Origin: Calditrichota bacterium
GTDB lineage: Bacteria > CLD3
DNA length: 41,202 nt
Direction of reading: 5' to 3'
NCBI GenBank assembly: GCA_008501735.1
Contig: QQUF01000037.1
Coordinates: 1 to 41,202 of the forward strand
Each line of letters starts with the position of its first letter. Position 1 is the first letter of the stretch. Shown here piece after piece: positions 7,338 through 26,864 of the stretch. The position numbers and the translations under genes were made by a program. A model generated the notes under the pieces. The model was given only the letters and a program-made list of their open reading frames with translations. It did no database searches and was not told the DNA's origin.

Positions 7338-7477
7338 CTGACGTTACGAGAAAAAAGAAAGAGAACCCACAGAGTAACACAAAGAAACCTAAGGGATTTT
7401 GTTTTTGCTTAACATCAAATTTTAATTTTTAGGGAATTTATTTGCCTGCGAAAGACACGAGAAATATTTGTTTCCTA

Positions 7478-7554
7478 TAGAGACGCACATTGTGCGTCTT
7501 AGTAAAAAGCACAAATTTTAATATTATTTTAAGATGCACCGCCGTGCGTCTCTA
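7478..7554. repeat. REP-doublet-like palindromic element (AGAGACGCAC family)
   Basis: Two palindromic units face each other. The left unit (7479-7501) contains AGACGCACA-t-TGTGCGTCT, a perfect hairpin. The right unit (about 7530-7554) reads, on the other strand, TAGAGACGCAC, GGCG and TGCATCTTA, an imperfect copy. About 28 bp of AT-rich sequence separates them. The organisation resembles REP doublets (BIMEs) or a very small MITE. Its right terminus, CTA on the plus strand, supplies the TAG stop of the minus-strand OstA-like gene at 7552-7554. No REP-associated transposase is in the window. Confidence 0.7.
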
Positions 7555-8814
7555 CTCTTTTAATTGAATTTGACTTTGGTATTTTCTTGGGAAGTAAGTT
7601 CCTTCTGAGCCTGTTTGGACTTCAATTTCAACGACTTTCTGTTTGTCGAAATTGATTTTAATGAAGCTTCCTGATACTTGGTTTGCACCACTTTTGTCGT
7701 CCAAGTAATAAACACTTTCGGCATTTTGCTTGATTTGAGATTCGTTTAGTTCGCCATCTTTGAAGACCATCGTAATCTCTTTTCCTTTCATCAAGTTTGT
7801 GTTTCCTGTTTTTTCAGAAAGTGATTTTGCAAACGCTTTTCCTTTGACAAAAACAGAATCTAACTTTTCGTCTTTGAACAAAATTTCAATCAATCTTCCG
7901 TCCAAGTCATTACTTTTTTGTTTAATTCTTGGCTCTGAGCGAAGAACTAACTTTGAGGTTTCGGTGTAGTAAAAGGCGGAATCGCAAAAAGCATCAAACT
8001 CTTCGCTTGTGATTCTAACATCTTCCGTTACCAAAAAGTAACTTGAATCTTGGTAGCCTTCCATTCTTTTCCCAATAACTTTCAATTGTTGTTTTCCTGT
8101 CGAGTCAAATTTAGTAAGAACAGGTTCGCCAAGAGCAACTAAAACTTTGATGTCAGTGTTGTAAATTAAAAGATTACTACTCAAAACAACTTTGTGAGAA
8201 TCATTTGTAACTGTAACATTTCCTTCTGCTCTTGCCTGAAAAAGTTTCTCCGAATGCGTAATTTCATTAGCAAAAACAACTGTGTTTCCGTAGTAAAGTT
8301 CTGCATTTTCGTAAGCACGAATGAACAAATCTTTGCGGAAATAATCTGCTTTATCAGCCCGCAATTCATAACTTGTGTCTTTGTAAACGACATTTCCACG
8401 AAGTGCGTAAGAATCAGAAATTTGTGAATAAACAAGACTATCACAAGTCAAAACTTTTGTGGTGTCAATAATTTCAACATTGTCCCAAAAAGTCGAAATT
8501 TTGATATTTTCGTTGTAGCGTGCAAAATCCGAAGCAATCGAAGACTCACCTTGAGTAAACAAAACATTTCCAATCAAAAATTTCTCATTGATTCCAAACT
8601 TAGTAACATTTTTCAAAGTGTCGGCGTGTTCAAGGTAAAGCAAATCATCCTGAGCAGAACAGTGAACAGTGAACAGTGAACAGTGAACAGTGAAGAGAAA
8701 AAGGATTTGTAGGATTACCGACTTTAGTCGTTTTTTTACCTCAGGACAGACTAAAGTCCGCAATCCTGTTCTCCTGTCTCCTGACTTCTGTCTCCTGACT
8801 TCTTCCCTTCTCAT
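7552..8814 (-). CDS. OstA-like / LptA-family LPS transport protein
   Basis: Periplasmic beta-jellyroll protein of the OstA/LptA superfamily (420 aa, the Bacteroidota OstA-like type, longer than E. coli LptA). The fold's repeating pattern is visible: GNVVYKDTSYELRADKADY, then AEGNVTVTNDSHKVVLSSNLLIYN, then VRITSEEFDAFCDSAFYY. The family forms the bridge that carries LPS from LptC to the outer membrane. Its start overlaps the lptC stop as ATGA, supporting translational coupling. The N-terminus is odd. After the start ATG come about 37 residues encoded by short repeats and an inverted repeat. A hydrophobic core made by five GAACAGT copies (LFTVHCSLFTVHCSA) then acts as the only apparent signal peptide. 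Its stop codon lies in the 7478-7554 palindrome. Confidence 0.82.
   Translation of the reverse strand: MRREEVRRQKSGDRRTGLRTLVCPEVKKRLKSVILQILFLFTVHCSLFTVHCSAQDDLLYLEHADTLKNVTKFGINEKFLIGNVLFTQGESSIASDFARYNENIKISTFWDNVEIIDTTKVLTCDSLVYSQISDSYALRGNVVYKDTSYELRADKADYFRKDLFIRAYENAELYYGNTVVFANEITHSEKLFQARAEGNVTVTNDSHKVVLSSNLLIYNTDIKVLVALGEPVLTKFDSTGKQQLKVIGKRMEGYQDSSYFLVTEDVRITSEEFDAFCDSAFYYTETSKLVLRSEPRIKQKSNDLDGRLIEILFKDEKLDSVFVKGKAFAKSLSEKTGNTNLMKGKEITMVFKDGELNESQIKQNAESVYYLDDKSGANQVSGSFIKINFDKQKVVEIEVQTGSEGTYFPRKYQSQIQLKE
8657..8691. repeat. Five perfect tandem copies of a 7-bp unit (GAACAGT) inside a coding region
   Basis: GAACAGT is repeated five times without error, followed by a partial unit GAAG. 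On the minus strand it codes for the hydrophobic stretch LFTVHCSLFTVHCS of the OstA-like protein's signal peptide. Because the unit is 7 bp, losing or gaining one or two copies shifts the frame, and a change of three restores it. A two-copy relative occurs at 26846-26871. Confidence 0.85.
8711..8766. repeat. Inverted repeat, GACTTTAGTC family, copy 1
   Basis: The left arm AGGATTACCGACTTTAGTC pairs with the right arm GACTAAAGTCCGCAATCCT (two mismatches over 19 bp) around an 18-bp loop. It is clearly related to the perfect hairpin at 11825-11878 (AGATTGCAGACTTTAGTCC arm). This copy lies inside the 5' coding region of the OstA-like gene, next to a tandem 14-bp duplication (CTGTCTCCTGACTT, twice, 8774-8801). 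Confidence 0.75.
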
Positions 8815-11794: not shown

Positions 11795-11824
11795 TTGGTT
11801 CAAACAAAGTAAATAAATAATTTT

Positions 11825-11878
11825 AGATTGCAGACTTTAGTCCGTTTTTAGGCACAAACGGACTAAAGTCTGCAATCT
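11825..11878. repeat. Perfect inverted repeat, GACTTTAGTC family, copy 2
   Basis: Perfect 23-bp arms, from AGATTGCAGACTTTAGTCCG continuing TTT, around an 8-bp loop. The downstream arm runs into TTATTTTTTT, so on the plus strand it could also terminate hscA-fdx transcription. It is the same family as the inverted repeat at 8711-8766, and both copies sit beside GACAGGAGTCAG-type sequence, so the two loci share a composite structure. Confidence 0.75.
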
Positions 11879-11909
11879 TATTTTTTTGACTTTAAAAATC
11901 AAAGTAACA

Positions 11910-12545: not shown

Positions 12546-12956
12546 ATGTCAGACATTAAAATTAAAATTCTCGGAAATGGTTTTTGCGAAGCGACTCACG
12601 AAGAGTTCGGCGAAAAAGTAAAAACTTCAATCTCACCAATTTTTGGTGGTAAAGGTGAAAATTTCTCTTCAACAGACTTGGTTGCCGCTGCTTTGGGAAC
12701 TTGTGTTGCAAGTAGCTTGGAAGGTTTTGCTAAAAGAAGTGATTTGAATTTTAATGAATTTGAAATTATGGTTGAAAAAGAACTTTCCGATTCGCCAAAA
12801 AGAATTTCAGCACTAAAAATCGAAATTGCTTACCCAAAGAAATTAGACGATAAAACCCTACTAAAAATTATAAGAATAATTAATTCTTGTCCCGTAAGAA
12901 AAAGTTTGAATCCTGAAATTATTGTCGAATCAAGGTTTAGAGAAATAAAGAAGTAG
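12546..12956 (+). CDS. OsmC family protein (peroxiredoxin-like)
   Basis: A 136-aa OsmC/Ohr-superfamily protein, which typically reduces organic hydroperoxides using two cysteines. The first is in LGTCVASS on the central helix and the second in NSCPVRKSL; both are present at family positions. The N-terminal strand pair and PIFGGKGENFSSTDLVAAALG agree with the OsmC/YhfA class rather than Ohr. It follows the cyclase gene by 12 bp. Its TAG stop (12954-12956) is the first three bases of the palindromic repeat 12953-12980. Confidence 0.88.
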   Translation: MSDIKIKILGNGFCEATHEEFGEKVKTSISPIFGGKGENFSSTDLVAAALGTCVASSLEGFAKRSDLNFNEFEIMVEKELSDSPKRISALKIEIAYPKKLDDKTLLKIIRIINSCPVRKSLNPEIIVESRFREIKK

Positions 12957-12980
12957 GGAACAAAGATTTTTGTTCCCTAC
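12953..12980. repeat. TAGGGAACAAA hairpin repeat, copy 1 (bidirectional terminator-like)
   Basis: Arms TAGGGAACAAA and TTTGTTCCCTA (11 bp, perfect) flank a GATT loop, plus one more G/C pair outside. It overlaps the osmC stop codon and lies between convergent genes (osmC and the aldehyde dehydrogenase). An almost identical copy is at 22873-22900, also between convergent genes. It could fold as a terminator hairpin from either side, though without a strong T-run. Confidence 0.75.
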
Positions 12981-22872: not shown

Positions 22873-22900
22873 GTAGGGAACAAAGATTTTTGTTCCCTAT
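22873..22900. repeat. TAGGGAACAAA hairpin repeat, copy 2
   Basis: Same arms and GATT loop as at 12953-12980, differing only at the last base. It lies between the convergent TRAP receptor and response-regulator genes. Its CTA terminus provides the TAG stop codon (22897-22899) of the response regulator on the minus strand. Confidence 0.8.
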
Positions 22901-23598
22901 TTAGATTTGTTCACAAATTTGTAGCCGACACTTCGGATTGTGTGAAAATAAACAGGTTTTCTTGGGTCTTCTTCAAAGTATTTTCTTAGTGCGAGAATGA
23001 AATTATCAACAGTTCTTGTTGAAGGATAAACATCGTAACCCCAAACTTCTTCCAAAATCAAATCACGCGAAACAACTTGGCTTTCTCGCTCAATCAAAAG
23101 TTTGAGAAGCATCACCTCTTTTTTAGTTAGGAAAAAAGTATTTTCACCTTTAGAAGCCTCAAAAGTCTTAAAATTTACTTTATTTTTGCCAAAAGTAAAA
23201 ATATCTAAATCTTCTTTTGGTTGACTAAAGGGAACACTTCTTTTGAGTAAGATTTTAACTCGAAGTAAAAATTCATCTAAGTTAAATGGCTTGGTTAAGT
23301 AGTCATCAGCACCTTTTTTAAGTCCGATAACAATATCTTCACTTGTATTTTTTGCTGTCAAAAAGAGAATAGGAACTTCAGTATTTTCAAGACGAATTGT
23401 TTCACAAACTTGCAATCCATCAATTTCAGGAAGCATAATATCAAGAATTATTAAATTGAATCTTTCCTCCTTGAAAGCCTTGAGAGCATCAACTCCATCA
23501 GAAACCGCTGTTACAGTAAAACCTTCCATTTTCAAATTTAACGCAATTGCTTCTTGCAAATGCTCTTCATCTTCAACCAATAAAATTCTGTAATTCAT
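22897..23598 (-). CDS. Response regulator, OmpR/PhoB family
   Basis: A 233-aa two-component response regulator. The receiver domain has the acidic pocket (LVEDEE at about 7-12), phosphoacceptor Asp53 in LIILDIMLPEIDGLQ, the switch Thr in FLTAKN, and the conserved Lys in DDYLTKPF. The C-terminal winged-helix DNA-binding domain contains LTKKEVMLLKLLIERE, VSRDLILEEVWG and RTVDNFILALRKYFEEDP...IRSVGYKF. Its start abuts the kinase stop (TAAATG), so they are translated as a pair. Likely targets are the divergent cytochrome operon or the convergent TRAP gene, but no binding site is proven. Confidence 0.95.
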   Translation of the reverse strand: MNYRILLVEDEEHLQEAIALNLKMEGFTVTAVSDGVDALKAFKEERFNLIILDIMLPEIDGLQVCETIRLENTEVPILFLTAKNTSEDIVIGLKKGADDYLTKPFNLDEFLLRVKILLKRSVPFSQPKEDLDIFTFGKNKVNFKTFEASKGENTFFLTKKEVMLLKLLIERESQVVSRDLILEEVWGYDVYPSTRTVDNFILALRKYFEEDPRKPVYFHTIRSVGYKFVNKSK

Positions 23599-24828: not shown

Positions 24829-25416
24829 ATGCTCATCAAAGTATTGACCATTTTACTAATGTTCGGAGTTTTTATTTTTGCTTTTAGTTTCTTTTCTGAG
24901 TCAGAAACTTTGAAAGAAGTTAGAATTTCAGAGGAATTTAAAGTAAATAAAATCAGTGACTGGAAGCTCCGATTAGTGGAAAATAAAATTTATACATTAA
25001 CAAAAAGCTCAGAGTCTAAAATTAATAAAATAGATTTTTTCACTTTAGACTCTTTGAATTTTGCAAACTCGGCTTCTACCAAAGAGTTAGCAGAAAAAAT
25101 TATTGCAAAAGAAATTTTTGATTACAAAGAAAGTAAATTAGAGTATTCAAATGGATTTTTAGAATATTTAAAAAATCACAAAAGTTTCTCTTTGGAAGAA
25201 GTAAGATTTCTGAAAAAAGATTGGTTTGTTTATTCTTTGCACAACTCTGAAAGACAAACATCTGTTTGGGTAAACGTTTTTACAATTTTAGGAAATCAAA
25301 TTTTTGTATTCAGATTTTTTTACAATATCGACTCTTTAGAAGAAATTATATCGAATGTCGAAATTACCAACCTTTTAAAATTATTTATTGTTGAAAATCA
25401 GGTTGTAAATAAATGA
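24829..25416 (+). CDS. Membrane-anchored protein of unknown function, coupled to octaheme cytochrome
   Basis: A 195-aa protein I do not recognise. One N-terminal hydrophobic helix or uncleaved signal (about 2-20) precedes a Lys/Glu/Phe-rich soluble part with mixed alpha/beta character and no Cys in the mature part, so no heme sites. Its TGA overlaps the start of the cytochrome gene (ATGA), a sign of coupled translation and probably of a joint function such as assembly, anchoring or partner binding. It is divergent from the two-component system. Confidence 0.72.
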   Translation: MLIKVLTILLMFGVFIFAFSFFSESETLKEVRISEEFKVNKISDWKLRLVENKIYTLTKSSESKINKIDFFTLDSLNFANSASTKELAEKIIAKEIFDYKESKLEYSNGFLEYLKNHKSFSLEEVRFLKKDWFVYSLHNSERQTSVWVNVFTILGNQIFVFRFFYNIDSLEEIISNVEITNLLKLFIVENQVVNK

Positions 25417-26864
25417 GAACTAAAATTTTTATAGCAATTTTTTCCCTTTTATCAATAACTGTAATAACCCTTTTCTCTTCTACTACCTACGAATCTTACT
25501 CTTCTCTTTACGATGCTGAATACACAGGAAGCGAATCTTGTAAAGGTTGTCACCCAATAATTTCTGCGGAATGGGAAAATTCGCCTCACGCCAAAATGAC
25601 TCGCGAACCAACTCAAGAAAGTGTTGTAGGCAATTTCAATAACGGCGAATGGTTTTTGCCAGAATATGCTAGAAAAACACCTGTTGATTTTGTCGAACCA
25701 GCTGCCAAAATGTTTGAAAAGAATGGCGAATATTTTATGGCATTGCGTCACCCTTTAAACAACCAATTCATTCCTTTCAAAATCGAATTTGTAATTGGTT
25801 ACCAATACAGACAAACTTACATCACAAGAGAAGCAGGTGGAGTTTTGCGTCGTCTTCCGCTTCAATGGTCAGTTCCGAGACAAGATTTTTTCCCTTATTG
25901 GAATTACCAAGAGAAAAGTGAACCAAGTGTTCAAGATTTGTGGGCTCAAATGCAAACATTGAATTCTGCTTGGAATTTATTTTGTGCAAGATGCCACACA
26001 ACTCATCTTACAGTTGAAGAGAAAAATCCTCAACACACACAAGCTAAAACGCATTGGGTTGACGAAGGAATTGCTTGCGAAGCTTGTCACGGACCAGGAA
26101 GTCAACACAACAATTATTTTGAAGGAAATTATGTAAATCGAGTCGCTGCTTTTGTAAACTCTAAACTTAGAGACCAACCTGTTGCTTACATTGCAAATGC
26201 TCCGAAACTCACAAAAGGACAAGATTTAAGTGTTTGTGGAAGGTGTCACGGAGCAGATATTTTTACGACCTCAACAGATGTTTACAGAATTTATGAACCA
26301 GGTTATTCACGAAAAGGGAGAACTAACGACCTTTCAAAACACTTCCGTGAAGCTCCTTTGCAAGCAGGAAGAACTCAAGCAACAATTGAATGTTGGGAAG
26401 ATTCAAGACCAAAAGGAATTGGAATGCTTTTCCGCTCTTTTGTAGAATCGGACTGCTATCAAAAAGGTGAAGTTCGTTGTTATGATTGCCACCAAGCTCA
26501 CGATAACAAAAAGCCAACGAAAGAAAATATTTTAAAACCTTCAGAAGTTAGTAACGACTACTGTTTGAATTGCCACACGAATTTGAAGAATAAAATTGAA
26601 GAACATTCTTTCCACAGGGCAGGAACTTCTGGTTCGTTTTGTTACGATTGTCATATGCCAAACCACATTTTGAGTATGGTTTCGGGAGTTGACAAACTTT
26701 TGCCAACTCACACAATGAGCTCGATTCCAAATCCTAAAATGTCAGAAAAACTTGGTGTTAAAGGTTCGCCAAATGCTTGTAACGATTGCCACTACAAAGA
26801 ATCAACTTCTTGGGCAATTGAATGGACTGAAAAATGGTGGGGAAAAACAGTGAACAGTGAATAA
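25413..26864 (+). CDS. Octaheme c-type cytochrome (cytochrome c554-like family)
   Basis: A 483-aa exported multiheme cytochrome with a signal or anchor helix at about 4-24. Eight CxxCH heme-binding motifs begin at Cys43, 191, 222, 275, 356, 384, 410 and 456. Family phrases are YTGSESCKGCHPIISAEWENSPHAKM, CEACHGPGSQH, RCYDCHQAH, CYDCHMPNH and SPNACNDCH, as in cytochrome c554/TPR-associated multihemes. These handle electrons in the periplasm and in some cases reduce or oxidise N or S compounds. The Lys-containing or CxxCK active-site heme of NrfA is absent. The substrate is unknown. The last residues KTVNSE and the TGA are encoded by a GAACAGT-type repeat. No quinol oxidase subunit is adjacent, so the electron source is open. 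Confidence 0.9.
   Translation: MRTKIFIAIFSLLSITVITLFSSTTYESYSSLYDAEYTGSESCKGCHPIISAEWENSPHAKMTREPTQESVVGNFNNGEWFLPEYARKTPVDFVEPAAKMFEKNGEYFMALRHPLNNQFIPFKIEFVIGYQYRQTYITREAGGVLRRLPLQWSVPRQDFFPYWNYQEKSEPSVQDLWAQMQTLNSAWNLFCARCHTTHLTVEEKNPQHTQAKTHWVDEGIACEACHGPGSQHNNYFEGNYVNRVAAFVNSKLRDQPVAYIANAPKLTKGQDLSVCGRCHGADIFTTSTDVYRIYEPGYSRKGRTNDLSKHFREAPLQAGRTQATIECWEDSRPKGIGMLFRSFVESDCYQKGEVRCYDCHQAHDNKKPTKENILKPSEVSNDYCLNCHTNLKNKIEEHSFHRAGTSGSFCYDCHMPNHILSMVSGVDKLLPTHTMSSIPNPKMSEKLGVKGSPNACNDCHYKESTSWAIEWTEKWWGKTVNSE

Follow-up and report, generated by a model that had tools for sequence, protein, structure and literature searches.

The window, by which we mean the whole 41,202-nucleotide stretch analysed here, corresponds to one contig (C26) of a 4.14 Mb genome that has 34% G+C and very few sequenced relatives. 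Four of its genes are of concern: an OstA-like ORF with a Pfam OstA_2/LptD_N domain, an OsmC-like gene with an OsmC domain, an OmpR/PhoB-type response regulator with Response_reg and Trans_reg_C domains, and a multiheme cytochrome gene (Table 1). All four are members of convergent gene pairs. The sequence-only reading of this DNA held that the first three take their TAG stop codons from the edge of a palindromic repeat and that the cytochrome gene takes a TGA from a GAACAGT-type tandem repeat. Direct reading of the sequence bears out all three TAG codons as palindrome edges. The OstA stop is the outer edge of a doublet (7477-7555) composed of two inverted units with their feet outward, a layout called REPIN, and the OsmC and response regulator stops are the feet of two copies of a second element. 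The cytochrome stop was misread: the 3′ end of the ORF reads GTG AAC AGT GAA TAA, the TGA of the repeat is out of frame, and the TAA that ends the gene lies just outside the repeat, which places this gene outside the phenomenon.

It was further proposed that the palindromes terminate an ORF whichever way they are inserted. This is so in one of the three frames on each strand, and the other two frames through the palindrome are open. Other repeats are also present in the window. The GAACAGT heptamer is tandemly repeated close to the 5′ end of the OstA ORF, with a shorter relative before the cytochrome stop at 26864, and palindromes of another type, possibly a further repeat family, occur at two places.

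Table 1. Genes, repeats and transposase loci in the window and in other sequences considered here.
Feature	Sequence	Position	Strand	Remarks
Family B REP, first half of doublet	window	7477..7502	+	degenerate foot (ATAG), stem AGACGCAC/GTGCGTCT; from the sequence and the genome-wide family
Family B REP, second half of doublet	window	7529..7555	-	GTAG foot toward OstA, supplies TAG 7552-7554; family B member with 3 mismatches
OstA/LptD_N-like ORF	window	7552..8814	-	TAG (CTA 7552-7554) within REP; start placed at 8643 by gene caller
GAACAGT tandem repeat	window	8657-8690
Palindromes of another type	window	8711-8767 and 11811-11892		GACTTTAGTC...GACTAAAGTC cores
OsmC-like gene	window	12546..12956	+	stop TAG 12954-12956 is REP left foot
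Family A double-foot REP GTAGGGAACAAAGATTTTTGTTCCCTAC	window	12953..12980	.	12-bp hairpin, -18 kcal/mol, z -5.7
Family A REP	window	22873..22900	.	GTAG left, degenerate CTAT right; hairpin z -4.8
OmpR/PhoB-type response regulator	window	22897..23598	-	stop CTA 22897-22899 is REP right foot
Multiheme cytochrome gene	window	25413..26864	+	stop TAA 26862-26864, not repeat-derived
Family A RAYT	L085	10104-10643	-	at contig end
Family A tandem array	L085	9900-10945		end of C48
Family A tandem array	L095	11120-11280		end of C58
Family B RAYT	L092	9474-10010	+
Y1 transposase-like gene	L030	G000:C44:152497
Y1 transposase-like gene	L031	G000:C52:116651
Kinase paralog with REP	L036	1521-6587	-
Kinase paralog with REP	L047	16170+
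Kinase paralog with REP	L055	2-3415	-
Kinase paralogs with REPs	L056	5390-10441 and 14512-19569	+
Kinase paralog with REP	L074	9714+
Kinase paralogs with REPs	L083	3-3188 and 9231-14279	-
REPs with palindrome-extending unique flanks	L133, L134, L135, L157, L170 and others
REPs with palindrome-extending unique flanks, own genome	L032, L042	9923 (L032), 9965 (L042)
REP-donated TAG of PurN-like gene	L151, L190	7163 (L151), 6290 (L190)

Two GTAG-tagged REP families and their transposases

The palindromes that touch these genes are copies of two GTAG-tagged REP families, mobile repeats of a known type. Family A reads GTAGGGAACAAAN4TTTGTTCCCTAC and family B reads GTAGAGACGCAN6TGCGTCTCTAC. Across the genome the family A pattern TAGGGAACAAA-N4-TTTGTTCCCTA has 37 exact matches and 60 with at most 3 mismatches, compared with 1 for the reversed-pattern control, and the family B pattern TAGAGACGCA-N6-TGCGTCTCTA has 14 and 51, respectively, compared with 0 for its control. 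The full element is one base longer on each side than these search patterns and runs from GTAG to CTAC, with the two feet present in 44 and 45 of the 47 family A copies and in 20 and 21 of the 23 family B copies. Family A is a double-foot element (GTAG...CTAC), and family B mixes double-foot and single-foot copies. Thirteen REP copies lie in coding sequence. Family A units are also densely arrayed in tandem at the ends of contigs C48 and C58, and the two arrays are probably one locus split by assembly. The TA present at both edges of perfect copies would be expected of MITEs belonging to a DDE or Tc1/mariner-like transposon with a TA target duplication (TA-GGGAAC...GTTCCC-TA). However, the conserved edge is GTAG/CTAC and so extends beyond a bare TA, and the transposase linked to the repeats is a Y1 HUH enzyme rather than a DDE enzyme, which makes such an origin extremely improbable.

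Each family is accompanied by the gene of a REP-associated tyrosine transposase (RAYT) that has REPs of the same family both around and inside the ORF, and the family B RAYT gene has its own TAG donated by a B REP. The two proteins match the NCBIfam model NF047646 (REP_Tyr_transpos) at 64.4 and 67.0 bits (E 1e-17 to 2e-18), short of its curated cut-off of 80 bits, and the model name is to be taken as resemblance only. The family A RAYT carries the motifs PNHIH, AWQKSF and YIRNNP, and the family B RAYT carries PNHIH, VWQTRF and YILENP, the last being one residue off YIxNNP. In both genes an in-frame REP of the gene's own family follows shortly after the HUH motif, between HUH and Y. An in-gene REP is also found in most of the RAYT homologs from Patescibacteria, as a rule 42-66 nt downstream of the HUH motif. 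Searching the genome with Pfam PF01797 returned two other Y1 proteins, whose flanking palindromes are different, and missed both the A and B RAYTs. Y1 transposase-like genes flanked by quite different palindromic repeats lie at L030 and L031.

The tag, the dispersed copies, their downstream placement and a REP-flanked RAYT, which are marks of the GTAG REP super-family, are all found here. The accessible text of Di Nocera et al. 2013 (PMC3733652) describes GTAG-tagged palindromes of 20-40 bp in many copies, located ≤20 bp from the 3′ ends of convergent genes, with in-frame intragenic copies and RAYT association, and reports that REP termini, through the TAG of the tag, supply stops to flanking ORFs. 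Stop donation by GTAG REPs has been described before, and the present genome adds a further example. The repeats documented here differ from those in that account in that many of the palindromes are symmetric and carry a foot on each side, and neither this host lineage nor the A and B sequences were found in the accessible portion of the paper. The A and B RAYTs with their REPs fit TnpAREP subclass 2.4, whose REPs are of the 'double foot' type (Quentin et al. 2018, PMC6006769; Bertels group 4). As far as the accessible text of that study describes the subclass, the likeness extends to the GTAG...CTAC double-foot REPs, the NH[IFV]H (here NHIH), WQ and YIxNNP motifs, the in-frame REP between HUH and Y within the tnpAREP gene, and a patchy distribution across phyla. 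The YILENP motif of family B departs from the subclass, and candidate phyla are unmentioned in the accessible text. In-frame palindromes within protein genes are also a feature of Rickettsia palindromic elements; however, RPE-4 and RPE-6 are CGTC-tagged and without known transposase according to the accessible text of PMC3733652, whereas A and B are GTAG-tagged and have a RAYT. Each REP family is probably copied by its own RAYT of subclass 2.4. The case for mobility is built on the number of copies, their identity in sequence and the presence of RAYTs alongside them, and from these we infer the movement itself.

Placement relative to gene ends

Placement was scored in 1.58 Mb of sequence comprising the surroundings of the copies and 14 other stretches, with genes called by a home-made hexamer model. 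Among the 89 intergenic copies that have both neighbours, 42 lie in convergent, 45 in co-directional and 2 in divergent spacers. Convergent spacers account for 8% of the intergenic sequence by length and divergent ones for 30%; in a binomial test the surplus in the former has P ~1e-22 and the shortage in the latter 7e-12. There are 111 TAG-bearing edges that face a gene end, and 78 of these are located at -3 to +20 nt. Plain intrinsic terminators that share sequence by chance would likewise be found at 3′ ends, and several copies in the window match a loose terminator pattern. Such terminators are not expected to be identical 28-mers across unrelated loci and phyla, to have fixed GTAG feet and a RAYT association, or to occur within coding sequence as 13 copies do. 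In addition, T-runs after the hairpins show no excess (0.38 compared with 0.36 in REP-free 3′ spacers), a result that also gives no sign of terminator specialisation among the REPs. We consider a chance resemblance among ordinary terminators very unlikely.

The sequence-only reading predicted an excess of repeats at exact stop positions, and this excess is observed. Twelve of the 111 facing edges donate the stop, compared with 2.9-4.3 expected. Uniform placement within the same spacers yields a mean of 2.9 donors and a maximum of 11 in 20,000 runs. From the local density near gene ends, 3.7-4.3 edges are expected at any one position (P values of 5e-4 to 2e-3), with the figure of 3.7 obtained from gaps of 0-14 nt (Poisson P ~5e-4). 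The enrichment at stop positions is real but modest. The facing edges that donate no stop mostly lie 3-20 nt beyond an existing one. Copies near gene 3′ ends that are read through are limited to one in each transposase gene, 237-240 nt from the end, and their near-absence elsewhere agrees with a loss of insertions that are read through.

The same reading supposed that the elements are kept precisely because they sit at, or create, gene ends, and it named stops older than the repeats as evidence to the contrary. Both genes tested in relatives have such stops. A repeat-free ortholog of the response regulator (76% identity) ends within 1-2 codons of it (...KFTAS-stop versus ...KFVNKSK-stop), and a repeat-free ortholog of the OstA ORF (56% identity) ends one codon later (...IKLETH-stop versus ...IQLKE-stop). 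Since the repeat-free orthologs terminate almost at the same residue, the gene ends are older than the repeats. At least three further donor genes (AroA, DUF493/HP0495 and NudE-like) stop at the position normal for their families. For OsmC no match was found in the same family and class, and only distant homologs elsewhere were recovered; A- or B-like patterns were likewise not found in the same family and class.

A selected function in ending genes, whether by stop donation or as a fail-safe stop combined with a terminator, would account for the exact-stop excess, the strong 3′-end bias and the stable RNA hairpins formed by the elements. It would also accord with the TAG that a family A REP supplies to orthologous PurN-like formyltransferase genes in two Roizmanbacteria species, where a donated stop common to both shows long persistence. 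Yet only 11% of facing edges donate and 89% do not, in the Patescibacteria sample 2 of 66 facing ends have a donor, the ancestral gene ends predate the repeats, and the T-run excess that a terminator role would predict is absent. Retention for ending genes is thus unsupported, and we judge it unlikely.

Hairpins and a shared site in kinase genes

Some copies lie exactly in the middle of longer palindromes of unique, unrelated sequence. Among 78 Patescibacteria copies, 12 have 6-14 more paired bases beyond the feet, compared with a mean of 0.36 copies and a maximum of 4 for shuffled flanks. In the genome studied here, 5 of 47 copies have a perfect inverted repeat of 6-10 bp beyond GTAG/CTAC, also far above shuffled flanks. 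These flanks raise the possibility, which we put forward tentatively, that double-foot REPs prefer to insert precisely at the dyad centre of hairpins already in place, for example terminators, and that they target the hairpin and not the stop codon. A preference of this kind would cause REPs to land just behind genes. Template-switch correction that extends the palindrome outward after insertion could produce the same picture.

Eight paralogous kinase-AAA-TPR-GAF-sigma54-activator genes (~1,685 aa where complete) contain in-frame A or B REPs at a single site in the kinase domain. In each gene the site lies in the same stretch of codons, past the kinase hinge, B-B and B-A doublets also occur there, and the encoded peptides are VGNKNFCSLQ or VETQNLASLQ. 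In a small tree of the paralogs, one row of which is partial, element type departs from the tree, with three changes needed for the A label and two for B. This pattern suggests that REPs have probably entered the kinase site, or replaced one another there, several times.

A transposase tag that reads as a stop

Taken together, these observations very probably describe non-autonomous GTAG-tagged REPs for which stop donation follows incidentally from the transposase tag and from selection against read-through, and is not the reason for their retention. Because the TAG belongs to the GTAG tag recognised by REP transposases, its presence at the edge of the palindrome needs no explanation in terms of stop codons; GTAG-dependent cleavage and joining of single-stranded REP has been demonstrated for other RAYTs (PMC8266576). 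In the mechanism we propose, the RAYT would nick and paste the single-stranded REP hairpin by means of its GTAG foot, and insertions just past genes would be tolerated. An insertion in the last codons would survive only with the TAG of the foot in frame, whereupon that TAG would become the stop near the old position. An insertion in either remaining frame would let translation run on through it and would be lost by selection. A gap of -3 would then pool all last-codon insertions that have the TAG in frame, and so would represent several insertion positions. A tolerated loss of ~2 codons may suffice to lift the number of donors from ~4 to 12. Selection for donation might, in principle, contribute to the donor excess (12 compared with ~4).

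The identical family A 28-mer is widespread in Patescibacteria, several genomes of which carry A repeats together with A-type RAYT homologs that are 57-65% identical. A relative from the same family as the host (G001) is without an A-type RAYT and without such repeats. The shared 28-mer and the similarity of the transposases point to a putative transfer between phyla in which enzyme and substrate moved together. With this genome, the range of double-foot REPs and of their RAYTs comes to include a sparsely sampled lineage. In sum, a transposase tag that spells a stop codon makes insertion at a gene end nearly harmless, and the link between repeat and stop needs no function.
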